Source: Panorpa germanica (taxonomy: Eukaryota; Arthropoda; Insecta; Mecoptera; Panorpidae). Taken from it: DNA of 64,000 bases. The stretch lies in contig OY783214.1 in assembly GCA_963678705.1 (NCBI GenBank), positions 15,934,001-15,998,000 on the forward strand. Direction: 5' to 3'. The notes beneath the pieces were generated by a model. The model ran no database searches, was not told the DNA's origin, and was given only the letters and a program-made list of their open reading frames with translations. Position numbers and translations under genes: made by a program. Positions within the stretch are counted from its first letter, which is position 1, and each line of letters starts with the position of its first letter. Below, in pieces: positions 2,837 to 46,686 of this stretch.

Positions 2837-4798
2837 ATGTTTTATCAAGTGTTACTGTTTGCCATTATATCAAGCGCTGCGGTTTCATTAAATGGTAACT
2901 AATTTTAATGGGCATAGGACACAATCCTATGTCTTAATTTCTATAAAAGTGTACTGTATATTGATAAAGTGGGTTACTAGAACCTCAAATGTTCAATTAT
3001 TTTTAATAAGTCCTTATATGTTAAGAGATAATAACAATTAGAAATGTCATTTTGTCTCTTTAATTATTAAAGGGATTCAACGTTGTACACATTTCAAGTG
3101 CATGTGACATCACAATACTTGTGTAAGGATACCAACCTTACAGTTCATAAATCTCTGCTATATGTAATTATATATCAAAATATCAAATATTATTTACAGC
3201 TATTTCAAGGAACAATAAAATTCCAATATTATGTCTGCCTTAGCAGGGTTAAATAATATAAAAACTTATTATTCTTTGATTTGACTTGATTATTTGACTA
3301 CCAACAGCTACAAAACATTACCACAGCACTGACTTACTCAACAAATAACTGACGTTAAAATGCATTTCATGTCATACAAATATGGCCGACCATTTCTAGC
3401 GCTAAAACTATAATTCAAACTTTTAATTGCTATATCTCCGTCAATATTTAGATATTTAATAAAATAGACACGCCAATATACATTTATTAACATCAATTTC
3501 AATCAACAATTGAAAAATCGACCACTAAAAAATGAGGACACGAGCCCATTATATAATACTCTGGTAAATTATTAATATTTTAAATACTCGTAAATATATC
3601 TCGGAAGCTGAGTCATAAGAAAACTGTAATCATATTAGAATAACTTGGTATGTATAAAAGAAACATTTCTAAGCAGGGGTGCCGAAAGTAACTCTTACAG
3701 AGTATTGCAAAACTTCAGATTTTATTGTATGTGGTTTAATTTTGATACAGATTCAATTCCATCTAGTGTAAAACTATCGTAGGACCTCCTACAATATTAT
3801 AGCAGTATTAATAGTATCGTCGACTATATGTGACGTTTCTTAATCTGATAACCAAAACCTAAAGCGTTGGTTTGAGGATCGAACCCCCCGACAGCAGCCT
3901 GGCGTTAAGCTTAAAATCAATCAGAGATGACCTTATTTAGCCTATACCTGCGGATACCTATATAACTGATGGTAACTTTTGGTATTATATTATAATATTT
4001 TCCAACTTTTTAAATAAAATACTGTAAGTATGGTTCCATTCTTATAACTGCAGGTTATTAATTTTTTCAGAAGCTGGCCCACCCGTTCACTTGCGTCCAC
4101 GTGTTCGTCGAATTGCAGGTGGCATACTGTTGACCTCCATCACTTCAGTACCTTTTCTAGTATCAATTAACCACACCATGGGTTATCTATGTACGGGAAC
4201 TATTATCGGTAAACAAGAAATCATTACGACAGCGGATTGCGTCAGCGACTATCGAGCCGAGGATCTCACCATAAGGTTTGCGTCTCTGGCTAGAAGCTAC
4301 GGTGGACGAACTGCATCTATTGAACAAATAATAATACACAAAGAATATGGTCCATTTAGAAACGTATATGATTTTGCAATACTAAAAGTAGCAGAAAACA
4401 TGTATTGTGATATGATTGGTTGTAAAAAAATTGATCTACCAGACACAATCGAAAATCTTATGCCAGATACTCTTGTATTAATTGCTGGTTGGGGTGCAAC
4501 ACAAGAAAATTTAGGTAACACATTTGAAGCATTTATAACTCAAGTTCCTATTGTTTCTAATCATAATTGCCAAAAATTATACAGTGAACTTATTAAAGAT
4601 AGTATGTTTTGCACTCACAAACTCGGAGCAGGGGCATGTCAAGGTGATATGGGCAACCCGGTGTTCAGGTTGGATGGGAAACATTTTATTCTTGATGGAA
4701 TAGTATCTTGGCGTCGGGGATGTGGATATAGGAACTACGCAGATGTTCACGCTAAAGTGTCTGTAGTTCTTGATTGGATTCTAACATTAATCACATAA
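2837..4798 (+). CDS. Secreted serine protease homologue (inactive S1 family), two exons
   Basis: Exon 1 is 2837-2894 (ATG, donor GGTAACT) and exon 2 is 4071-4798 (acceptor attttttcag). The junction forms a Glu codon and keeps frame, giving 261 residues. Residues 1-18 are a signal peptide. A trypsin-type activation site R33|IAGG follows a short pro-segment, and then one S1 domain. The disulfide cysteines are in place (60/76, 186/200, 209/237), as are GWG and the Asp of the triad (D120 in DFAIL). The other two catalytic residues are replaced: TAAHC reads TTADC (D75) and GDSGGP reads GDMGNP (M213). The pocket is also altered (Gly at the 189-equivalent; SWRRGC instead of SWGxGC). It should therefore be a non-catalytic homologue, of the kind that often acts as a cofactor or binding protein; the exact role is unknown. 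A MITE fills most of the single intron. No clear AATAAA follows closely. The frame is intact, so a functional gene is more likely than a pseudogene. Confidence 0.88.
2908..3549 (-). mobile_element. MITE family A, copy 2 (inverted, intronic)
   Basis: The reverse complement of the family A element at 50-683, flanked on both sides by TA (2906-2907, 3550-3551). It begins 13 bases after the donor of the serine protease homologue's exon 1 and occupies about half of that 1.18-kb intron. It has no coding capacity. Confidence 0.85.
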
Positions 4799-7869: not shown

Positions 7870-9417
7870 GTTCAATAAATTTTATTAAAGAATACTTGTG
7901 TAACCCTAGCTGTAAATAAATAGACAGATCATTTTTCTGGATATGTAATTTAAATGTAGTTGACTAAAACTAAAATAAATATAATTTATATATACATCGT
8001 AAGCTCGTATATTATGGTAAAATAGTTGTAATTAAAGTAATGTTTTAATCTTCATATTTTGCAATTATAATATAGAATAATGACCTAATATAGAAAAAAA
8101 CTAATAATATAAATAAATAAAGAAGTGTTATTGAAGTTGCGTTTTGAAAATCGCAGGCGCTGAAGAAATTTGAAAAATATATTTTTTGTCAGCTAAATGG
8201 TTTTGTACCAACCTTCAGTGGTAGTATGCCTTCTTTACATCGTATTGTATTTTTCGTATAGAAATAGAATCAATGTAACTAAGTGTATTAGATATATTTA
8301 TGACAATATTATATTAACATATGAATATAAGTTAAATTTATGCTGTTGACTTTGACATTCTGATACTTACTTTACATAAAGTAATGGAAGGAAATTATTA
8401 GATAATATTCCATTTATAGTTATTATTTCTTGAATGGAATTTTTTAAATACAAATGAAATAATGGACATTATACTTACATTATAATTTGACATTGTGTAT
8501 TATCAGGTACAAAATTATCAAGAAAAATGATTAACTATTGTTCCCTATTTACCCGCTAAATACAGTTATGTGTATTTAAGGTTTATCTAACTTAAAAAAG
8601 TTTTATGTTTCGTAAACAATGTTACCTAATATATAACGTTTTGAAAAATAAATCAAACTTTTTGCCCGTTGACATAATCATAAAACTTCTTATTATATTA
8701 TTCACTATAAAATCTTTCAAAAAACTGTTTTAAGGGTTTAAAACCCCTTTTAAAGCTTTTAATGTAGCCATAGAATAAAACCTTTGCAATTTAATTAATT
8801 ACTAGATTATGTTTAAATAAAATATATTACGTTATTGCACAGTAAACAATTTAGTCAAGTGTCTTGTTTTGTGACGTTTCTATCACTATTGCATTTCAGT
8901 TATAGTTCGCTGTTTACATTATCTTATTGTATTCCGAGGTTTCGCCATTTGTTGCCGATAAAATAGACATTTCATATGAACTACTGTGAAAAACTGAACT
9001 GTAAATGAAGTCTTTGATGACAAAAAAATCATACGCATCTCCAATATGATGGCAAAGTGACTCCAAAATGTTTACTGTGTGTAAGATCTATTAATTTAGA
9101 CGGTAGAATAGAAAATTGAAATTAATTACTAAAAAAAAGTCTGACAGTTTCTTATATTCACAATATCTTGCTTTTTACAGTCCTTTAAAATGTTTTGCAG
9201 ATAAATTAAGTGCGATAATAACAATTGTGTTTAATAAACAAAGCAGAAAAGTTGCACCTGCATTTGTATTTTTAAAAATAGAAAAATTAAAAATAAATGT
9301 ATTATACTTTGTGCAAGAATAGTACAAAATATTTTTAAATAGAAAACTCTATTTTCTAGTAAAGAATTTATTTTTTTAAATAGACTAAATATTTACCTTT
9401 TTAAAAAAAATTCTTAC
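7870..9417 (-). other. GMC gene 5' UTR and first intron
   Basis: On the minus strand the coding first exon begins at an acceptor TATTTACAG|CTA, so 7909-7870 is 5' UTR. The sequence from 9417 back to 7910 would then be a 1.5-kb intron running from the donor at 9418. It contains a family B MITE (8838-9079) and otherwise AT-rich sequence without open frames. Confidence 0.6.
8838..9079 (+). mobile_element. MITE family B, copy 1 (242 bp)
   Basis: Inverted ends CACAGTAAACA and TGTTTACTGTG, flanked by TG on both sides (8836-8837, 9080-9081). It is end-to-end similar to copies at 37880-38133 and 46435-46686. The interior has no coding potential. It lies in the first intron of the GMC gene. Confidence 0.82.
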
Positions 9418-12590: not shown

Positions 12591-14185
12591 ATTGCAGTGA
12601 ATTTATTGAAGTAATTGTTTTATTAATAAAGTGTTTCAAAGAAACTCAACGTAGACTTCAGCGGAGAACAGTTTATCTGAAATACCTAAAGAAATATCTT
12701 CTCTTGTGGATCTTCCGCTGAGAGGTGTCCAGCTTGCCGATGTATCAGGCGTAGTATATAGATCATATTTTTTAAGTCAATTAAATTTTTATATTTCAAA
12801 GTTTATATTTTATTTGTAAATAATATTTGAAAATTATGTTTTTAATGATTTTTGTTATTACCAGTAAATAAAATTTAATAAATTGTAAAACATAAAATCC
12901 CAAATTTTTGTAATCATTTATTTATGTCAATTCCATTCAAAATGTAGTTACCAATAACTAGAAAATAATGAATATCTGGATTTACAAGAAAGCATGTCTG
13001 GACTAAGACTAGTAGAGAATTGTCGGAGGGTATCCATACAATTTATATACACTTCCAGTATTTAAATTAAATAAATTATTATTTTTAATTTAAAAAAATG
13101 ATCTACTTTTATCTAAATGGCAAGACTCCTTTTTCTAGCTGCTATACGTTGTTGTATTTTTCATTTTAGCAATAATTACATTTTCTGCAGTTCTTCTGAT
13201 GAAAGAAGGTTATACTCTTGTTAAAATCAATAAAAAAATTATATTTTTAATTTTAGCAAAAATAGGATTTTCTAAATTTCTTAAGATGATAGAAGGTAAT
13301 TTCACGTGATAAACATTATAATAAGTTTATAAAACATATGTTGTATCATCGATCGTGTCAATAATGATCCACCGGTGCGGAATAGTCCAGTGTACGTTGA
13401 GCCCTAACGCGTAACGCCTAGCGCTAACCGAATCAAAGCCGTTGGTTCAAATTAGTGACCACATGTTTCAGCCGTTCATTCTTCACACATCCTCTGTCCT
13501 TCGTTTCTATTCTTCTTCTTCACTTCCAACTCCAAAGAGCAGCCTTTAAGAACACAACGATTTTGAACAACATATTTTTTATAACGGGTCAATAATATTT
13601 AATAATTATATCAGTAACAATAGACTAACCTTAAAATGAGGTTAACGTTATAAAGTTTATAATAGTGTTGCGGTCGACGACTTCCGCCAAAAATGTTGCT
13701 ACTCCTCTACTTAAATTATACTAAATTTAAATGAATGGGGTGCAGACATATACAACGATAGAAATAATTGTATAATAATAGGTTTAATAATAATAAATTA
13801 GTATAATAAAAATATTATTAGGGTCTTGCTCATCATATGGTGAATAGGGAAAATAAAAGCAAACAAAATGTTGAGGATATGCACTTTGTTAAGATGAGAT
13901 GTAATTCATCAGATATAATCATCATTTATCGGCTAATGTTTAATTAATTACCACTTATGTCATTATAAGATATTTCACGAACTGTCCCGAGTGTCGAATG
14001 CTCTAAGTACTGGAGGTTTGAAACTTGAATAGGAAGTTATAAGAAAATTAACTGTCATCTCTTTAAATTAAAAAATTACTTACATTTTACATCTTTATAA
14101 CAACAATTGACGATGTTAAACAATGATTGAACCGTTTTCAAATCGTTAAAACTTCATACTCTATTTTAAATACAAAGATTCAAAC
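12591..14185. other. Gene-poor stretch before the repeat complex
   Basis: Contains a partial copy of the direct-repeat edge motif (13155-13310, with agaaggttatactcttgtta) and a GC-richer island at 13365-13560 with a CT-rich tail. No open frame or RNA gene could be supported in either. Confidence 0.4.
13155..13310 (+). repeat. Partial copy of the repeat-complex edge
   Basis: Two degenerate units of the motif that closes the 813-bp direct repeats: a gcaataattacattttctg-like block followed by agaaggttatactcttgtta, then a second tttctaaatttctt and atagaaggta. It shows that the family extends beyond the 14.2-19.9 kb complex. Confidence 0.6.
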
Positions 14186-14998
14186 CTTTTACTTTGGGCA
14201 CTGTAACTAGTTGGTGTTCTTAATATTTACTGTTCCAATCTATCTATGAAACAAATCTTTAACCTATATGTTTCATCTGCTCTTTAATAGATATCTCGTA
14301 AAGTAATTTATAATTGATCTGAACGGCGACATCTATTGAAGAGTGGCTTTAACATATATTAATAACAAAGTTTGCTCAACAGATGGCACATCAATTTTAT
14401 TGCGCCTGGACAGTGTGCAACTTAACTTGCATCTATGAAAATACTAGATGGCTTTTGACACTTCACTATGACATACCTAATTCATGGAGATGGATTCTCA
14501 TCGATGACAAATCAATACAAGAAACACAAGAAATCTGTTAAATTGATTCTAGGTAATTATATTTATATAATTAACTAAAAGAATTCATCTTAAAATTTAT
14601 AAATAATTGTAGTTTCTATTTATTTTTAGGAGGGACAAGTTGAAGCTACAAAAAAACTTAATAATATACCAAATATATAATAATAATTACCAAATATAAG
14701 TTACACCATTGTACCTTGTTAATATACCTCACCTTAAAACAATGTTATCTTTATAATTAATCAATAAAGTTCTAAAAAATTAGGTAATACGTGTTTTCTT
14801 ATATTTATTACATGATATGTATATTAATTAAGCTTCCTGTAAGTTGAATAAACAGAATTTCAAGAATTATGCAAACGAGGAATTTAAATACAAACCTATG
14901 AGTTTTACAACCAACCATCCAGAAACCTCCATTTTCGCTAAAATGTGATTTTCTAAATTTCTTGAGATAATAGAAGGTTATACTCTTGTTAAAATTGA
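14186..14998 (+). repeat. 813-bp direct repeat, left copy
   Basis: Runs from cttttactttgggcactgta to the motif agaaggttatactcttgtta. It is nearly identical to 19122-19934 at a constant offset of 4936 bp, with a handful of substitutions. Inside is what looks like a processed gene fragment with a mini-intron: a 32-codon frame from ATG at 14468 (MTYLIHGDGFSSMTNQYKKH...) interrupted after GATTCTAG|GTAATT and resuming at ttatttttag|GAGGG, then AATAAA about 140 bp on. The peptide is not recognised. Confidence 0.85.
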
Positions 14999-15263
14999 TA
15001 AAAATGTTGTATTTTTAAATTAAAAAAAAGTACAGTTTTCGCAGATCTTGAGATAAAATAATTGCGCCTAGATAGATGGCAAACTAACTTGCACTGTACG
15101 AAAAGATACTTTGTAGAAATAAGATCTGCATTTATTGAGATGAAAGATGGTTATACTCCTGGTAAAAATAATAAACACTGATTTTATAGTATACACTAGC
15201 TATTCGGCCCGTCGCAAGACAACGAGTGTGAGTTATGTATTTCTTTTTTAAATAATTAATATT
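14999..15263. other. Spacer between direct repeat and inverted array
   Basis: About 265 bp with no counterpart beside the right-hand array. It contains degenerate copies of the repeat-edge motif (gatggttatactcctggtaa) and a GC-richer word (cggcccgtcgcaagacaacg) of unknown origin. Confidence 0.4.
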
Positions 15264-16930
15264 TCAAACGTGTTTAATTGATCTATATCCGCTACACTTT
15301 AAATTGATAAACTGTTTAATTAAATTTCCAACATCTACGCGATTCTGACTTTTATGCGATTTTTTTAAATTCATGGACTTTTTTTCTAATAATTTTTTTT
15401 GCATTTCTTTAATTTTTTTTATGCAGTTATGTTCGTTAGGGTTTAAATTAAAGAACTGCTTCATTACATTTTAAATATCCACGCGATTCTGCCTTTTACG
15501 CGACATTTTTTAAATTCATGGACTTTTTTTTCTAAAATTTTTTTTTGCATTTCTTTAAATTTTTTAATGCAGTTATGTTCGTTAGGGTTTAAAATAAAGA
15601 ATTGCTTCATTACATTTTAAATATCCACGCGATTCTGGCTTTTACGCGACCATTTTTAAATTCATGGACATTTTTTTTCTAAAATTTTTTTTTGCATTTC
15701 TTGAATTTTTTTGATGCAGTTATGTCCGCTAGGATTTAAATTAAAGAACTGTATCATTACATTTTAAATATCCACGCGATCCTGACTTTAAGGCGACTTT
15801 TTTTAAATTCATGGACTTTTTTTTCTAAAATTTTTTTTTGCATTTCTATAAATTTTTTGATGCAGTTATGTTCGTTAGGGTTTAAAATAAAGAATTGCTT
15901 CATTACATTTTAAATATCCACGCGATTCTGGCTTTTACGCGACCATTTTTAAATTCATGGACATTTTTTTTCTAAAATTTTTTTTTGCATTTCTTGAATT
16001 TTTTTGATGCAGTTATGTTCGCTAGGATTTAAATTAAAGAACTGTATCATTACATTTTAAATATCCACGCGATCCTGACTTTTAGGCGACTTTTTTTAAA
16101 TTCATGAACTTTTTTTTCTAAAATTTTTTTTTTTATTTCTTGAAATTTTTTGATGCAGTTATCTTCGCTAGGCTTTAAAGTAAATAACTGCTTCATTACA
16201 TTTTAAATATCATCGCAATTCTGGCTTTTACGCGACCTTTTTTAAATTCATGGACTTTTTTTTCTAATTTTTTTTTTTGGATTTCTTGAAATTTTTTGAT
16301 GCAGTTATGTTCGCTAGGCTTTAAATTAAAGAACTGCTTCATTACATTTTAAATATCTGCGCGATTCTGGCTTTTACGCGACCTTTTTTAAATTCATGGA
16401 CTTTTTTTTCTAAAATTTTTTTTTGGATTTCTTGAAATTTTTTGATGCAGTTATGTTCGCTAAGCATTAAATTAAAGAACTGCATCATTACATTTTAAAT
16501 ATCTGCGCGATTCTGGCTTTTACACGATTTTTTTTAAATTCATGGACTTTTTTTTCTAAATTTTTTTTTTGGGATTTCTTGAAATTTTTTGATGCAGTTA
16601 TGTTCGCTAGGCTTTAAATTAAAGAACTGCATCATTAGATTTTAAATATCTATGCAGGAACTCAAAAAATTGCATTGCTCTTAAAATCATAAAAGTGAAC
16701 CTTTTCATCATTTTTAACAAGATTATAGTCTTCTTTCTATATGGAGATATAATCTAAATTTTTTTTTGGATTTCTTGAAATTTTTTGATGCAGTTATGTT
16801 CGCTAGGCTTTAAAATAAAGAACTGCATCATTAGATTTTAAATATCTACACAGATACTCAAAAAATTGCATTGCTCTTAAATTCATAAAAGTGAACCTTT
16901 TCATCATTTTTAACAAGATTATAGTCTTCT
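15264..16930 (-). repeat. 146-bp monomer array, left arm
   Basis: Ten tandem monomers oriented on the minus strand. Their ATG codons end at 15464, 15610, 15757, 15903, 16050, 16196, 16342, 16488, 16635 and 16831, so spacing is 146-147 bp except the last (196 bp, carrying an insertion). Each reads, on the minus strand, a lysine-rich frame beginning MKQFFNLK..EHNCIKK or MIQ/MMQ variants. Frameshifts in the A-runs interrupt some of those checked (15757, 16635). The outermost monomer runs into flanking sequence as a 66-residue frame. The family is not recognised. Confidence 0.9.
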
Positions 16931-17521
16931 TTCATTTAGATTTAATATATTGATATATCATAAACTAAAATACTTATTTAAAAATGAATTATAAATTTGA
17001 AATCAGCATTCAAAATTAAGTTAAAATCCTTTATAAAATGACAAATATATTTTCTTCAATTTTTATGAAAAGTAAGAAGGTTATACTCTTGTTACTTCTT
17101 ATGAAAATCGAAATAAAATAAATCTTTAAACGCCGATTACTCATTAACCGCAAGTGGTAATTAAAAATGGATTTCAATTTTTGAATCAGCATACAAAACT
17201 ACGTTTGAAAACATATATTATACGTCAAAATAAATTTTGATTTTTTTAACAAAAGTAAGAAGGCTATAGCCTTCTTACTTTTCATGAAAATTGAAAAAAA
17301 TAATTTGTTTATTTTTTAATGGTTTTTAACGTAGTTTTGAATGCTGATTTCAAATTTGTTATTTATTTTTAAATAAGTATTTTAGTTTATGATATATCAA
17401 TATATTAAATCTCCATATAGAAAGAAGACTATAATCTTGTTAAAAATGATGAAAAGGTTCACTTTTATGATTTTAAGAGCAATGCAATTTTTTGAGTATC
17501 TGAGTAGATATTTAAAATCTA
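16931..17521. repeat. Centre of the inverted array
   Basis: The two arms continue into inverted unique sequence: 16943-16968 mirrors 17383-17408 (axis near 17175), and the attcaaaa/ttttgaat blocks at about 17000 and 17345 share that axis. A second, local axis at 17266/17267 has a perfect 32-bp palindrome (17251-17282) and weaker pairing out to about 17184-17351. The motif agaaggttatactcttgtta occurs again near 17076. No open frame. Confidence 0.8.
17251..17282. repeat. Perfect 32-bp palindrome
   Basis: AAAAGTAAGAAGGCTA followed directly by its exact reverse complement, with no loop. It sits about 90 bp right of the axis of the large inverted array. It could extrude as a hairpin. Confidence 0.9.
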
Positions 17522-19050
17522 ATGATGCAGTTCTTTATTTTAAAGCCTAGCGAACATAACTGCATCAAAAAATTTCAAGAAATCCAAAAAAAAAATTTAG
17601 AAAAAAAAGTCCATGAATTTAAAAAAGGTCGCATAAAAGCCAGAATCGCGCAGATATTTAAAATGTAATGAAGCACTTCTTTAATTTAAAGCCTAGCGAA
17701 CATAACTGCATCAAAAAATTTCAAGAAATCCAAAAAAAAAATTTAGAAAAAAAAGTCCATGAATTTAAAAAAGGTCGCGTAAAAGCCAGAATCGCGCAGA
17801 TATTTAAAATGTAATGAAGCAGTTCTTTAATTTAAAGCCTAGCGAACATAACTGCATCAAAAAAATTCAAGAAATCCAAAAACAAAAATTAGAAAAAAAA
17901 GTCCATGAATTTAAAAAAGGTCGCGTAAAAGCCAAAATCGCGCAGATATTTAAAATGTAATGAAGCAGTTCTTTAATTTAAAGCCTAGCAAGGATACCTG
18001 CATCAAAAAATTTCAAGAAATCAAAAAAAAATTTTTAGAAAAAAAAGTCCATGAATTTAAAAAAAGTCGCATAAAAGTCAGGATCGCGTGGATATTTAAA
18101 ATGTAATGATACAGTTCTTTAATTTAAATCCTAGCGGACATAACTGCATAAAAAAATTTAAAGAAATGCAAAAGAAATTTTTAGAAAAAAAAGTCCATGA
18201 ATTTAAAAAAGGTCGCGTAAAACACAGAATCGCGTGGATATTTAAAATGTAATGAAGCAGTTCTTTAATTTAAATCCTAGCGAACATAACTGCATCAAAA
18301 ATATTCAAGAAATGCAAAAAAAAATTTTAGAAAAAAAATGTCCATGAATTTAAAAAAGGTCGCGTAAAAGCCAGAATCGCGATGATATTTAAAATGTAAT
18401 AAAGCAGTTATTTACTTTAAAGCCTAGCGAAGATACCTGCATCAAAAAATTTCAAGAAATAAAAAAAAAAATTTTAGAAAAAAAAGTCCATGAATTTAAA
18501 AAAAGTCGCATAAAAGTCAGGATCGCGTGGATATTTAAAATGTAATGATACAGTTCTTTAATTTAAACCCTAGCGGACATAACTGCATAAAAAAATTTAA
18601 AGAAATGCAAAAGAAATTTTTAGAAAAAAAAGTCCATTAATTTAAAAAAGGTCGCGTAAAACACAGAATCGCGTGGATATTTAAAATGTAATGAAGCAGT
18701 TCTTTAATTTAAATCCTAGCGAACATAACTGCATCAAAAAAATTCAAGAAATGCAAAAAAAAATTTTAGAAAAAAAATGTCCATGAATTTAAAAATGGTC
18801 GCGTAAAAGCCAGAATCGCGTGGATATTTAAAATGTAATGAAGCAGTTCTTTAATTTAAATCCTAGCGAACATAACTGCATCAAAAAATTTCAAGAAATC
18901 CTAAAAGAAATTTTAGAAAAAAGTACATGAATAGCATAGATATTTGAAATGTAATGAAACGGTTTCTTATTTTAGAACATAAGGAACATAACTGCATCAA
19001 AAACTTTCAAAGAATGAAAAAAAGAATTAGAAAAGAAATGGCCATGAACT
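17522..19050 (+). repeat. 146-bp monomer array, right arm
   Basis: Ten monomers on the plus strand with starts at 17522, 17668, 17814, 17960, 18106, 18252, 18399, 18545, 18691 and 18838, then a partial one at 18954. Read by eye, the five nearest the centre are fully open for 48 codons (MKQFFNLKPSEHNCIKKF... ending IFKM-stop), and each stop overlaps the next start as TAATG. 18399 is open but starts ATA. 18252 and 18691 are frameshifted by an extra T, 18545 has a nonsense codon and 18838 is shortened. Because 146 is not a multiple of three, the frame changes with every unit. The encoded peptide is lysine-rich and probably helical; no family is recognised. It may be satellite DNA with accidental frames. 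Confidence 0.9.
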
Positions 19051-19142
19051 TAATAAAACGTCGACATCTTGCGCCTGACAGAGAGGCAACATTACTTACA
19101 AGCAAAATTTTTACAAGCAAGCTTTTACTTTGGGCACTGTAA
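18954..19142 (+). other. Open frame at the outer edge of the right array
   Basis: A 62-residue frame starting like a monomer (MKRFLILEHKEHNCIKNF) but continuing into non-repeat sequence (RRHLAPDREATLLTSK...) and ending just inside the right 813-bp direct repeat. It may preserve part of a longer ancestral reading frame from which the monomer arose, or be a chance extension. Confidence 0.25.
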
Positions 19143-19934
19143 CTAGTTGATGTTCTTAATATTTACTGTTCCAATTTATCTATGAAACAAATCCTTAACC
19201 TATATGTTTCATCTACTCTTTAATAGATATCTCGTAAAGTAATTTATAATTGATCTGAATGGCGACATCTATTGAAGAGTGGCTTTAACATATATTAATA
19301 ACAAAGTTTGCTCAACAGATGGCACATCAATTTTATTGCGCCTGAACAGTGTGCAACTTAACTTGCATCTATGAAAATACTAGATGGCTTTTGATACTTC
19401 ACTATGACATACCTAATTCATGGAGATGGATTCTCATCGATGACAAATCAATACAAGAAACACAAGAAATCTGTTAAATTGATTCTAGGTAATTATATTT
19501 ATATAATTAACTAAAAGAATGCATCTTAAAATTTATAAATAATTGTAGTGTCTATTTATTTTTAGGAGGGACAAGTTGAAGCTACAAAAAAACTTAATAA
19601 TATACCAAATATATAATAATAATTAACAAATATAAATTATACCATTGTACCTTGTTAATATACCTCACCTTAAAACAATGTATAACTTTATAGTTAATCA
19701 ATAAAGTTCTAAAAAATTAAGTAATATGTGTTTTCTTATATTTATTACATGGTATGTATATTAATTAAGCTTCCTGTAAGTTGAATAAACAGAATTTCAA
19801 GAATTATGCAAACGAGGAATTTAAATACAAACCTATGAGTTGTACAACCAACCATCCAGAAACCTCCATTTTCGCTAAAATGTCATTTTCTAAATTTCTT
19901 GAGATAATAGAAGGTAATACTCTTGTTAAAATTT
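19122..19934 (+). repeat. 813-bp direct repeat, right copy
   Basis: Second copy of 14186-14998 with the same mini-intron signals and the same 32-codon frame. It starts directly at the end of the right array, whereas the left copy is 265 bp from the left array. Sequence beyond the right edge (gaatcaataaaaagatatca) differs from that beyond the left copy. Confidence 0.85.
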
Positions 19935-28200: not shown

Positions 28201-29794
28201 ATTGAACAAACAAAGACAACGCTAACTATTTTGTTTGAAGATAAATTTGCTGCAAGTGTGCATTTTCAGACTATCTTTAGACAGTTATGGCTTAATTCAA
28301 CCCTCTGTCTGAATGGTAACGCATACAGAACATAAAAAGTTCTCAAAACCCTCCCCAAGTTCTCCTCCAGTTCTAGAGACATTAGAAAAGACTATTTTTC
28401 GGAAAGTTTTGAACAGATGTATTGTAAACAAATATCAGCCTATGAGCCCCTGGTCCCCCTTCACCGATTCAACATAAGCTCCTAATTTAGTAGCTAGGCG
28501 GTATTATGAACGAGACAAATATTTACCAAAATCTCTGTTTTTCGCAGATTGCATAGTGGTTAGTATGAATATTGGTTAGCCACATTACTCCAGTTAATTT
28601 ATTACTTAAAAATTGTTAAAATTTAGCGTACATATGCTTATTTTCTTTGCAAGCAAGTGCTAATAGACTATTTATTTTTGTGTTTATGGCGGTAACTCGC
28701 CGACAACGGGCTTTGGCCGTGAGCACATTAACATTAGAAAACTGAAACTTTTTCAAGGAAATTCACATGTGTTGCTTTAAGATTTAATATTTTGCTTTTA
28801 ATAATATTATTAAATAAAAAGGTATATTTTTGCAGATCTAATCAATAATTAATTAACAATTCCATATACTTTTAGGTTTATTTAACATACCAAATTTTAC
28901 CATTTACATACATTTTCTTTTAGGTAAATACAATATTACTCTTTAAAAGTTATACTGTGACAAAAATTTACGTTTTCTGATAATCATTATGATTAGTAAA
29001 TTAAACAAATATAATATTAAAAGATTTTTAATATCTTTTGCATGTATTTAATGGCAATGTATAGAATTATGTTAAACTTCGGTAAATAATAAAAAATGTT
29101 ACGTTAAATAATACATGAATTTACGTATTCTGTTTAGCAGGTATCGTAGCCAAGCTAATTAAACATTCTGGAACTAATATTGTTGTACGAAATTTTCTTA
29201 ATATTAACACGTTTAGCAAACCTTAGTCAAGAAATCGCAAACCTGTTCATTTATGTCATATATACAAACTGAGATATCGAACCTCATTACGAGCATCTCC
29301 ATCTCCCAGCCTCCGCCATCTCGAGGGGGGCGGTTCGTATGATATTAATAAGACAAAACATGTTCGCTCATTACCTAATCATTACCGTGGCTCAATATAC
29401 GTCACATACATTTCCTAACATTTAATTAATTGATGTAAATTGAATTCAGAAGCATCACGTTCATCATATGAATATAGAAATTCATTTCAAAAAAACGTTT
29501 TGATGCAGCTGAATGTATTTTATGTTTTTGCATTTGAGTGTTGCTGTATTGCATCTGTAACTAAGTCGTTCTAGTTCTAAAAATAACCTAGAATTATTCG
29601 CACTACATTTATATCCTACATGTTTATTTATAACCCAAACTTAAGTGAAATTAGCTGAAAAGTGGATGAACTTAATAAAGGTAAAACCGAATAATGAGGA
29701 ATCTCAAATTAGATGTAACATTATATGAAGAAACCATTTCAGAACAGTTGAACAGTGTAACAGGTCAACCGTAAATTGCATTTTCACTAGTTGA
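25272..29794. other. Upstream/intronic stretch without genes
   Basis: If the long form is real, this is part of its 12-kb intron. Mostly AT-rich with no supported exon. Slightly GC-richer words near 25.3 kb (promoter flank), 28.4-28.7 kb and 29.3 kb (ctccgccatctcgagggggg) have no assignable role. Short frames at 26.1 and 28.1 kb look like chance. Confidence 0.4.
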
Positions 29795-30398
29795 ATGGGC
29801 TTGTGTCCTCATTTTTTAGTGGTCCATTTTTCAATTGTTGATTGAAATTGATGTTAATAAATGTGTATTGGCGTGTCTATTTTATTAAATATCTAAATGT
29901 TGACGGAGATATAGCAATTAAAAGTTTGAATTGTAGTTTTAGCGCTAGAAATGGTCGGCCATATTTGTATGACGTGAAATGCATTTTCACGTCAGTTATT
30001 TTTTGAGTAGGTCAGTGCTGTGGTAATGTTCTGTAGCTGTTGGTAGTCAAATAATCAAGTCAAATAAAAAAATAATAAGTTTTTATTTTATTTAACCCTG
30101 CTAAGGCAGTCGTAATATTGTAAATAATATTTGATATATAAATACAAATAGCAGAGATTTATGGGCTGTAAGGTTGGTAACCTTACGCAAGGATTGTGAT
30201 GTCACATGCATTTGGAATGTGTACAACGTTGAATCCCTTTAATAATTAAAGAGACAAAATGACTTTTTTAATTGTTAATATCTCTTAATATATAAGGAGT
30301 TATTAAAAAATAATTGAACATTTGAGGTTCTAGTAACCCACTTTATCAATATATATAGTACACTTTTATAGGAATTAAGACATAGGACACAAGCCCAT
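29795..30398 (+). mobile_element. MITE family A, copy 3 (604 bp)
   Basis: Same orientation as copy 1, with ends ATGGGCTTGTGTCCTC and GCCCAT. Unlike copies 1 and 2, it is not bounded by TA on both sides (GA left, TC right), so its target duplication has decayed or the insertion was rearranged. A short internal block present in copy 1 near 380 is missing here. Confidence 0.8.
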
Positions 30399-33300
30399 TC
30401 ATGACGCATGATGACAAAGAAAAAGTTACAAAATAAGACCACATACAATTAATTTCGTGTGACATCTAAAAAAAAAAAGGTTAGACGAGATACAATTGAT
30501 TTTGCGGGAGATTCAAACAAAGTAACGGTTTGGCAATACACAATCAATTTTGCGAGGGATCTAAAAAGAGGATTTAGATAATTGTATTAGACACCTTTAT
30601 TGACTAATGCAACAAGCCTCCACCACTCGAGTAAAATACATTCAATCTACAAATGGTCTTAAGCGCCATTATGTTTATAACCTAGAAAACTCTAAACATC
30701 ATCTAGAAAATTTTACATTTCAACGGTTCACAAAATTGGTAAATCTTTTTCGTTTAGAGATACATATATCTAAAAAAATTTGATACCGTTTTGAGACTTA
30801 ATTTAAATACCATTATTTAATTACCGTTATTCAATCATTTTGAGCACCTGTTGATATTACTATTATTTTATATTAAAAAAAACAATTACAATTAAAACAC
30901 GTAATAAAATAAATTGTCTTCATACTTTAGAAAGACAATTAAATCGAACAAAAATATTAGTTTATACGAAATGACTTATTAAGAAGTGTGCATGTGACTT
31001 TTTCCTCATTTTAAATCATGTCCTGTATCTTATATTCTTCCAGGTAAACATCAAAGAATGTGAAATTTTTCCATAGTTACTTATATTTACAAATAATTAT
31101 ATTTAAATAGTTTAAATGAACAATAAATATTTTTTTGTAAAAAATAATCACGTAATCATGTACAAATGGTCGGTTAACACAAAAAATGAGTCACGTCTGA
31201 AGTACGGATACTGTACCAAGAGTAAAACATAAAATATTCCATTCATTTGGAAGTCCATTTGTAAATATGCAAATATATATGCTAATTACAATGGCAACAA
31301 GTGTGGGCTGTTCTTCTGGTAGAGTGTTAAGTAGTATTTCATTGAATTCCTGTTACCAAGACGTCTATCTCCAAGAAGAACATGAACAGGATCATCTTCA
31401 TGTTAGTCGAGTTATCGCTTTCTGCTTTTATTTACGAGTTTTGTTATTTAATTATTCTCATAGTAACACCCAAATACCATGAGTGGCAACAACTGAATTA
31501 TAAAACTGTAAACACTGAAATTAACATATTCTGTTATTCTGCTTCCGGTCTTCTTTGCTGGAGATCGTGAGATTTCTATTAAATTAGGTTACAGCCAGAG
31601 TCGTCGCGTGTAATTTAGTGAATAAGGAAAAAGTAACATAAGACTGAGATTGACACTGTAGAAGAAATAAAGGCTATGAAAAAGTAGTAATTACCAAAGC
31701 GACAATGACCCAGCTGGACACATTAATTATTCAATTTAAGTGGCAAAAAATCATATCTGTTGAAAGTAGAAACTCTCATTGGAAAATTTTACAGTTAAAA
31801 TAAATTATCTTCGGAAATAATGGTAGTAATAAACAAGTAAAAGATAAGTAATAAAAGGTAATGAATCACATTTTAACTTATGACATTTGAAACAATCAAA
31901 AATTAGTAAAATACATTTTCTGAGAATAATTTATTTTGAATTTCCCGCCATATCTTAAGTGTCATAACCTCAACTTCAAGTTTCAGTCATTGCGCAATAG
32001 TTCATTTTTATAAGAGAATCAATTTACGAGTATGTCATCGTGGATTCGTAGAATACGGTGGTCTTTTAAATTAATTACTTGAAATAAAATAAGACTATAC
32101 GTTTCTGTTGAAGGTAATACCCATTGGCAATGTCGCCGGCTACCACGACGACGAGTTAAGGTAGTTGATCCGAGATAGTCATGCTCAAAAGTATAACTCA
32201 GCAACCTAAAATTATAATGTAGCTGAAACGTTAGTGTCAAATATTCTCGTTAAAAACTTTTGTGAAAGTACAGTCTCACTGTTCTCACTACATGTAAATA
32301 GTATCTACACATACATACACGTATACACGTATATACATTCACGTATTCTCACTGTTCTCACTACATGTAAATAGTATCTACACGTATATTCACATACATA
32401 CACGATATACACGCATTTTCAATGTTTACAACATTTTATTTCTGTAATGGCGTGGACAATAATTTCCATTTTTTTTTATGTGATTAATAACTACTGTTTC
32501 TATAATATATTAAATTTTTATTGAATTCCTTTGAATCGTTTTTATTTTATTCGATAAAAATAACATTGAAATTACTATTTCCCATAAGAGCCTGTGTTAA
32601 AATAACAAAACTTTAATATCGTTTTTCTCAATAATGGAGTGGTAAATTTTAATCGACCTGAGGTCAATATGTCTTATAATTAATTAAAGAGCAATTAAAT
32701 GAAGTTTTATTAAAATCCTTTGAAAAGTCATTCCACGATACAACTACCTTAAGTTAGTTTTACCTCGATGTGGTGACACACTGGACTGGAGCCAGGTGAA
32801 GTACACCTCACAGGTGTAGCAATAGATGTATTATCTGTAGGGAATCCCACTATGAAAGCAAAAGATTTAATACTGTATGGGCTATTAAGAACTATTTATA
32901 GATTAAGAAAAATTATTAATAAATCTGGTAATACCAGTTATTTGTAAATGTTATTAATAAATTATAGTTTGTATATGTGGTTCTCCGAAAGCTTATCTTA
33001 AGACATTGATTAAAAGGTGAAATCTGATAAGAAATGGTGTATCAATACGAGCTGACTATTTTTAAGTTGCCGCCATTTTGCACAAACTTTAACATTTGAA
33101 ATTTTACAGATGTTGCTTAGAGACTTAGGCAATTAATTATGTAGTAATTTGTAGTCCAACAACGCGTTTGACTTATTATTAATTTACTTTATTTATTTTC
33201 TAGTTTACTTATTTTACTGAGATTGTCAATTAAATTTGGTAATTGCTTTGGTAAATGTACTATTCAATTTCTACTTTGTCTAAAATGACATTGATGTATA

Positions 33301-37879: not shown

Positions 37880-38133
37880 CCCAGTAAACAATTTGGTGAA
37901 GTGCCCTATTTAGTGACGTTTCTATCACTATTTCACTTCAATTATAGTTCGCATCAACTTTATCTTCATTTGTATTCCTACAAGTGGAGTAATTTCGCCA
38001 TTTGTAGCCGATAAAGTAGACATTTTATATGAAAAAATGTGAGAAACTGAACTATAAATGAACTCTTTCATGACAAAAAAATCAGGACGCATCTTCAATA
38101 TGATGTCAAAGTGACTCCAAAATGTTTACTGGG
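37880..38133 (+). mobile_element. MITE family B, copy 2 (254 bp)
   Basis: The best-preserved ends of the family: CCCAGTAAACA at the left and TGTTTACTGGG at the right, flanked by TT on both sides (37878-37879, 38134-38135). The interior aligns end to end with the copies at 8838 and 46435. Confidence 0.85.
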
Positions 38134-38368
38134 TTAAGACACTGGAGGCTACCGTTACTTCGAGCTCTATCTACATCCACTTCCTGTTTGAAATGGCTTT
38201 CATTATTTGTAATTACTCATTTTTAATCTCTATTCCTGTTGCACTTCCTAAATATGATTAAGTTTTTTACTCTAAATTAGTAAACGAATTCAACTAAAGT
38301 CTGTTAGAGATTTGTTTTAAAATCAGGTTCAAATTAATCAATTTTTGTCAAAATATATGTCGCAATAC

Positions 38369-46434: not shown

Positions 46435-46686
46435 CCCAAGAAACAATTAGGTGAAGTGTCCCTTTTTGTGACATTTCTATCACTATTTCACTTCAATTAT
46501 AGTTCGCATCAACTTTATCTTCATTTGTGTTCCAACAGGTGGAATGTTTCGCCATTTGTAGCCGATAAAATAGACATTTTATATGAACGACTGTGAGAAA
46601 CTGAACTGCAAATGAACTCTGTCATGACAAAAAAGTCATGTGCATCTTCAATATGATGGCAAAGTGAATCCAAAATGTTTACTGGG
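46435..46686 (+). mobile_element. MITE family B, copy 3 (252 bp)
   Basis: Left end CCCAAGAAACA (mutated) and right end TGTTTACTGGG, flanked by AT on both sides (46433-46434, 46687-46688). Closest to copy 2. Confidence 0.85.

Follow-up and report, generated by a model that had tools for sequence, protein, structure and literature searches.

A dispersed family of palindromic paired 146-bp repeat arrays in Panorpa germanica, probably the body of a non-autonomous Helitron

Structure of the palindromic block

The window (the whole 64,000-bp stretch of Panorpa germanica DNA analyzed here) contains two arrays of ~146-bp monomers that diverge from an inverted center, one on the minus strand at 15.28-16.85 kb and the other on the plus strand at 17.51-19.06 kb. 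GMC oxidoreductase and trypsin genes lie near this block (Pfam matches); Rfam (gathering threshold) and ARAGORN gave no matches in the window. TRF places the period-146 arrays at 15290-16650 and 17507-18922, and monomer dissection resolves nine full monomers per arm, flanked on both sides by degenerate or shortened edge monomers, as well as a partial monomer at 16755-16846. Based on both analyses, the left array (15336-16650, minus strand) comprises nine full monomers of 144-147 bp, while the right array (17507-19063, plus strand) comprises nine full monomers and two shortened or decayed edge monomers. The twenty monomers of the original prediction are thus roughly right, and the regular period it described holds across the 21 loci dissected, where 400 of 413 monomers measure 145-147 bp and 286 are exactly 146 bp. 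Its suggestion of a link to nucleosome length is not supported, as the monomer consensus (the consensus only was analyzed) lacks a ~10-bp AA/TT periodicity.

The arms align in inverted orientation at 92.1% over 1,477 columns (15284-16756 vs. 18874-17401, axis 17,079). Aligned with its own inverse, the block matches at most over 15369-18932, with the axis at 17,150, close to the predicted 17.17 kb, and the 658 bp separating the arrays self-align in inverted orientation at 81.7%. TRF, monomer dissection and inverted alignments therefore all bear out the proposed head-to-head palindrome, including its continuation through the non-repeat center. Monomer dissection also agrees with the prediction that the arms, which differ monomer by monomer, are not mirror images, and a single recent inversion is not supported.

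A junction segment, E, links each array to the center. On the left (16651-16949, minus strand) it occurs twice (16660-16756 and 16846-16949) with the partial monomer in between, representing a ~196-bp local duplication; on the right it occurs once (17401-17506, plus strand), and the two arms are identical at 95/97 and 101/104 positions of E. The self-inverted core (16931-17400, strand undefined) has a homolog between the arrays of all 20 other loci compared. Within it are a hairpin-prone motif, AAGAAGGTTATACTCTTGTTA (17074-17094, plus strand), which is also found within an 87-bp minisatellite, and a near-perfect palindrome of ~30 bp around AAGTAAGAAGGCTATAGCCTTCTTACTT (17256-17286, strand undefined).

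Outside the left array, a 3' subterminal region that includes a decayed edge monomer (15228-15335, minus strand) is common to L010, L015, L019 and L026. It leads to a Helitron-type 3' terminus, ...ACTCGTTGTCTTGCGACGGGCCGAATAGCTAG (15196-15227, minus strand), followed by a host T at 15195; this is the only exact match in the window, with a shuffle expectation of 0.00. While the 3' side is intact, the 5' side ends at about 19110 within a type B segment (19063-19110, minus strand) that stops before the 5' end, and the window copy, which has lost its 5' end, gave no match to the family 5' pattern at ≤3 mismatches. An 814-bp flank lies beyond the 3' end (14183-14996, plus strand) and again, at 97.3-97.4%, at the expected place of the 5' end (19119-19933, plus strand); the two copies form a direct repeat (793/814 identical). 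Since the stretches read of L012 and L019 contain this flank only once, its duplication in the window is probably secondary. We considered whether the repeat could represent LTRs, but it has no TG/CA ends, its left copy runs into an 87-bp-type repeat, and the single flank copy in the stretches read of L012 and L019 also opposes this reading. The 3' end at 15196-15227, the 814-bp direct repeat flanking the block and the dispersed copies described below were absent from the original prediction.

A dispersed family of palindromic loci

We searched the 464-Mb genome (249 contigs). With the block as query, 231 matches were listed (best 36 of 1,669 candidates scored), and these were merged by hand into 36 loci, including the window. 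Twenty loci besides the window, chosen for array similarity by their score with the palindromic query, were read, yielding a 21-locus sample that is biased because the query is itself a palindrome. Palindromic status was counted only where arrays were read, as matches on both strands to a palindromic query are not valid evidence. The order minus-array, core, plus-array was recovered in 21/21 loci, with core lengths ranging from 357 to 959 bp and 7-14 full monomers per arm. The window core matches those of L009, L010, L011, L013, L015 and L016 at 94-99% when compared one way round and at 80-82% when reversed, which indicates that the palindrome, slightly asymmetric as it is, was passed on whole.

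A search with a single monomer (222 matches; best 40 of 935 candidates scored) added 15 loci with listed matches on one strand only, by hand count. As a counter-test, four of these one-strand loci were read at the inner edge of the array, and all four were palindromic; three of them had also been picked for a nearby listed 3' end. Of two loci chosen by their 3' ends, L039 is palindromic and L040 is not: in the latter, five diverged monomers (about 80% identity to those of the window) form one array of a single orientation ahead of a family 3' end. A 637-aa ORF at L040 had no significant Pfam match (best E 0.12). In total, 26 of the 27 related loci examined, window included, are palindromic and one is single-array. 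At least one further locus among the 36, C7:15247314-15249034, spans only one array's length among the matches listed.

Some copies are related through their surroundings. L010, L012, L019 and the window copy have common flanks on C11 and, judged by these flanks, are segmental duplicates rather than independent insertions. In L028, inverted identity continues ~3.9 kb past the arrays at 97.4%, demonstrating that inverted duplications of larger size arise at axes of this kind, and in L012, L017 and L020 it continues about 0.1-0.4 kb; as these alignments show, palindromes grow through local inverted duplication as well. On C2, part of the core also occurs as head-to-tail arrays of about 302-310 bp.

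Helitron-type ends and insertion site

The family 3' end carries ACTCGTTGTCTTGCRACGGGCCGAANNGCTAG. Searching with the 3' motif including the T (≤2 mismatches) gave 135 genome matches (67 forward, 68 reverse) and none with the reversed-pattern control; the T follows the motif in 100/100 of the matches listed of the 135. A CTRR terminus is present in 10 of the 11 3'-end rows, with nine CTAG (window included) and CTAA in L025, while L015 departs from it with TTAG. A listed 3' end lies no more than 1.5 kb from at least 11 of the 36 array loci, and 11/11 of these ends point outward (chance expectation 0.07); this count used 100 of the 135 3'-end positions, among which no nearby 3' end was found for the other 25 loci. 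L039, with a family 3' end at both outer edges, is an exception to the asymmetry of the ends. In the three copies folded, a candidate 3' hairpin with a 7-bp stem and 5-nt loop (19 nt) ends 12 nt from the terminus and is maintained despite a G/A change in one arm, with a stability no greater than that of shuffled sequences (z 0.35, -0.87 and 0.50). The 3'-end pattern had no match in viral contigs.

The 5' start, TC(A/C)TATATTATAATGT, is present in L021 and L024, in L009 with one base different, and at two places in L038, where one TC directly abuts the CTAG of another element; L023 and L019 start without TC. Allowing ≤1 mismatch, the 5' pattern TCMTATATTATAATGTYCCA matched the genome 5,327 times (2 for the control), so this motif is common far beyond the palindromes. 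Among the first 100 perfect 5' matches, which all lie on C1, the TC has an A before it in 74 cases (hand comparison). Elements with both ends are L021 (3,662 bp), L024 (3,990 bp) and C21:10633362-10637000 (3,639 bp; edges read, interior known from block-query matches), and L023 has both sides with the TC missing. L021, L023 and L024 share one pair of end sequences, and their flanks beyond these ends do not match each other.

No target duplication was found in the flanks of L021 and L024. As a query for an empty site we used the joined 70-bp flanks of L024 (40 matches; best 40 of 823 candidates scored). The joined flanks match a dispersed repeat, with two of the 40 rows being L024's own halves and 29 containing a single match that runs from query position ≤26 to 140 and crosses the junction. 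A paralogous empty site at C11:8400205-8400335 reads from AAAAACTA straight into TATTA, with no base inserted, lost or duplicated at the junction, and closes exactly between A and T for the 3,990-bp L024 copy. The first bases of the element resemble the L024 target (TATCCTATATTATAA vs. TATATTATATTATAA); the 5' boundary was therefore set by the CTAG side, the other copies and L038.

Genes encoding RepHel proteins are abundant in this genome (893 candidates, best 150 scored). A comparison by eye placed no listed 3' end less than 100 kb from any of the 150 scored, and no matching 5' or 3' end was found within the 3,543-bp stretches read at RepHel loci L029-L036. One RepHel gene has a putative 3' end 298 bp past the ORF, a hairpin and CTAG followed by T, of the same type as that of the palindromic family and different in sequence.

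The copies are dispersed, have a common core orientation and TC/CTAG ends, and are inserted between A and T without target duplication, with one empty site recovered. The window block is very probably a 5'-truncated non-autonomous Helitron, with a 3.6-4.1-kb palindromic body consisting of a core and two divergent 146-bp arrays. It is unlikely that the family is instead a dispersed satellite that turned palindromic and was propagated through segmental or inverted duplications or reinserted DNA circles, with the Helitron ends being accidental neighbors. The 25 of 36 loci without a 3' end among the 100 listed of the 135, the segmental duplicates on C11, the large inverted duplication at L028 and the head-to-tail arrays of core sequence on C2 would all fit such a history; against it, accidental neighbors would not be expected to point outward in 11/11 cases, to supply L021, L023 and L024 with the same two ends between flanks that do not match, or to leave an exact empty site for L024.

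Palindrome axis, arm-to-arm identity and a possible origin

In L019 and L024 the axis reads AAGTAAGAAGG(C/T)TATA..TCTTCTTACTT. Two pairs close to the center are mismatched, and 97/101 (96%) and 94/101 (93%) positions, respectively, are paired. Six other cores are 57-77% paired over 100-101 positions, leaving a clean axis in two of eight (ungapped test). The single form of the motif, AGAAGGTTATACTCTTGTTA (or one to two bases off), is found in the window at 13203, 14971 and 19908; the axis motif, which is part of the 87-bp minisatellite, includes a short inverted repeat (AAGA..TCTT).

Within a locus (18 loci with both arms), E is on average 98.1% identical between the two arms, and between loci the average is 96.9%; the observed within-locus identity was reached by 1 of 5,000 random pairings. 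Because E segments mostly have their nearest relative in another locus (25/36, with eight ties and only three uniquely in the opposite arm), arm-to-arm conversion is possible but weak at best as judged from these sequences. Within-locus identity above that of random pairing could also be produced by selection, as expected if the palindromes persisted on account of transcripts that form long hairpin RNA and feed an siRNA/piRNA pathway, and the window copy could encode such a hairpin, each arm measuring about 1.5 kb. As gene conversion or common ancestry can account for the same identity, we regard maintenance through hairpin RNA as very unlikely.

From the axis anatomy we infer a fold-back origin of the palindrome. 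The element would have begun as a Helitron with a single array, such as that of L040. A strand end may then have paired with itself at the short inverted repeat AAGAAGG..TATA..CTCTT and served as its own template, generating an almost loopless center, after which proteins of an autonomous Helitron would have mobilized the palindromic unit by rolling-circle transposition. As the unit spread, unequal exchange would have altered array lengths, perhaps with some arm-to-arm conversion, and a later rearrangement could have removed the 5' end of the window copy and left a duplicate of the 3' flank in its place.

A role for the palindrome in the life cycle itself seems unlikely, whether the displaced strand snaps into a ~1.5-kb hairpin and is replicated or integrated via a fold-back intermediate or, as a variant, hairpin RNA from the palindrome protects the element. 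Under snap-back, the double 3' ends of L039 and the near-loopless axes of L019 and L024 would be its products. Were the palindrome to act in transposition, this would bear on how Helitron single strands get copied.

In eukaryotes, long palindromes with almost no loop are considered unstable; here a transposon whose body is a long palindrome would carry it to many loci. With this family, palindrome decay, arm-to-arm conversion and inverted duplication at an axis could readily be measured, and it suggests a further way in which satellite-like repeats become dispersed. Among the papers listed by a text search of the open-access literature, no title or abstract opening described a Helitron with paired inverted arrays, and we provisionally consider a Helitron built as an inverted pair of arrays to be novel.

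Relationship to known elements

Foldback/Galileo elements are defined by symmetric termini and target-site duplications. The original prediction linked the window block to this group. Its recognition of a mobile-element-like inverted structure without a visible transposase stands, and the kinship does not, because complete copies have neither symmetric termini nor target-site duplications but asymmetric TC...CTAG ends inserted between A and T. It is most improbable that the arrays are the long terminal inverted repeats of a Foldback/Galileo/Tetris-type DNA transposon cut and pasted by a TIR transposase: the outer ends of complete copies are asymmetric (TC side vs. CTAG side), the outer edges of the two window arrays end at different monomer phases, and L021 and L024 lack a target duplication, as does the empty site, which already contradicts such an origin. 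What the family does share with Tetris/Galileo/Foldback elements, based on the portions of PMC4079207 available to us, is the Tetris-like anatomy of long inverted tandem-repeat arms with copy numbers that vary between arms; unlike these elements, it has no terminal inverted repeats at its true ends and no target duplication. Inverted arrays are difficult to assemble, but with 26 palindromic loci on several contigs, 21 of them measured and varying in core (357-959 bp) and array length, the chance that the palindrome is a collapsed or chimeric inverted contig is practically negligible.

HINE/Helentron elements (oyster Cg_HINE, DINE-1) carry central satellite-like arrays, according to the available parts of PMC7492417 and PMC4067079. 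Like the family described here, they are dispersed rolling-circle elements with short satDNA-like arrays, and the oyster cluster CL6 even has monomers of ~146-147 bp (PMC7492417, available text). As far as these texts go, HINE/Helentron elements have one central array between left and right modules, in contrast to the two opposed arrays around a core in P. germanica, and they are characterized by subterminal inverted repeats and by insertion into T-rich TT sites, whereas insertion here is between A and T with CTAG, which argues against membership in this group.

Canonical Helitrons, as described in the accessible portion of PMC4067079, have a 5' TC, a 3' CTRR and a stem-loop, and insert between A and T without target duplication; their hairpin is 16-20 nt long and lies about 11 nt before the 3' end. 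The family resembles canonical non-autonomous Helitrons, as characterized in that portion, in its 5' TC, its 3' CTRR (here mostly CTAG) and its insertion between A and T without duplication, and it may do so in its candidate stem-loop about 12 nt from the 3' end. It differs from canonical Helitrons in its body, which is a multi-kb palindrome of two minisatellite arrays.

Variants of the palindrome and its termini

Elsewhere in the assembly, the palindrome (a minus-strand and a plus-strand array of ~146-bp monomers around an inverted core) has a symmetric version, the stretch L039 (contig C6:1043900-1047250), both outer edges of which are the Helitron 3' end (CTAG|T). On contig C7 (about 18.9616-18.9730 Mb; L028 together with L046/L047), the inverted identity continues ~3.9 kb past both arrays, at 97.4%, giving a total palindrome of ~11.4 kb, flanking DNA included.

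On contig C1, Helitron 5' termini are stacked 48 bp apart (e.g., at 1125917, 1125965 and 1126013), as if the 5' end had been reiterated. Among the matches listed, neighbouring 3' termini in L040 (contig C19:10979250-10985150) are separated by ~5.2-5.7 kb; the L040 unit has two open frames, of 479 aa and 637 aa, with no significant Pfam match for the latter.

Related and local repeats

On contig C2 (24.991-24.995 Mb and 25.333-25.337 Mb), a portion of the palindrome's core (query 174-467) builds head-to-tail arrays with a unit of ~302-310 bp, and the motif at the palindrome axis also lies inside the unit of an 87-bp minisatellite in two other stretches of the assembly (L014:8217-8890 and L027:6572-7120).

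Within the window, the palindrome is flanked on either side by the copies of an 814-bp direct duplication (14183-14996 and 19119-19933), which are 97.3-97.4% identical. The window also carries two dispersed repeats, one of ~630 bp in three copies (48-672, 2925-3551 [inverted] and 29794-30399; 89-94%) and one of ~250 bp (8840-9086, 37882-38139 and 46441-46684; 82-89%).
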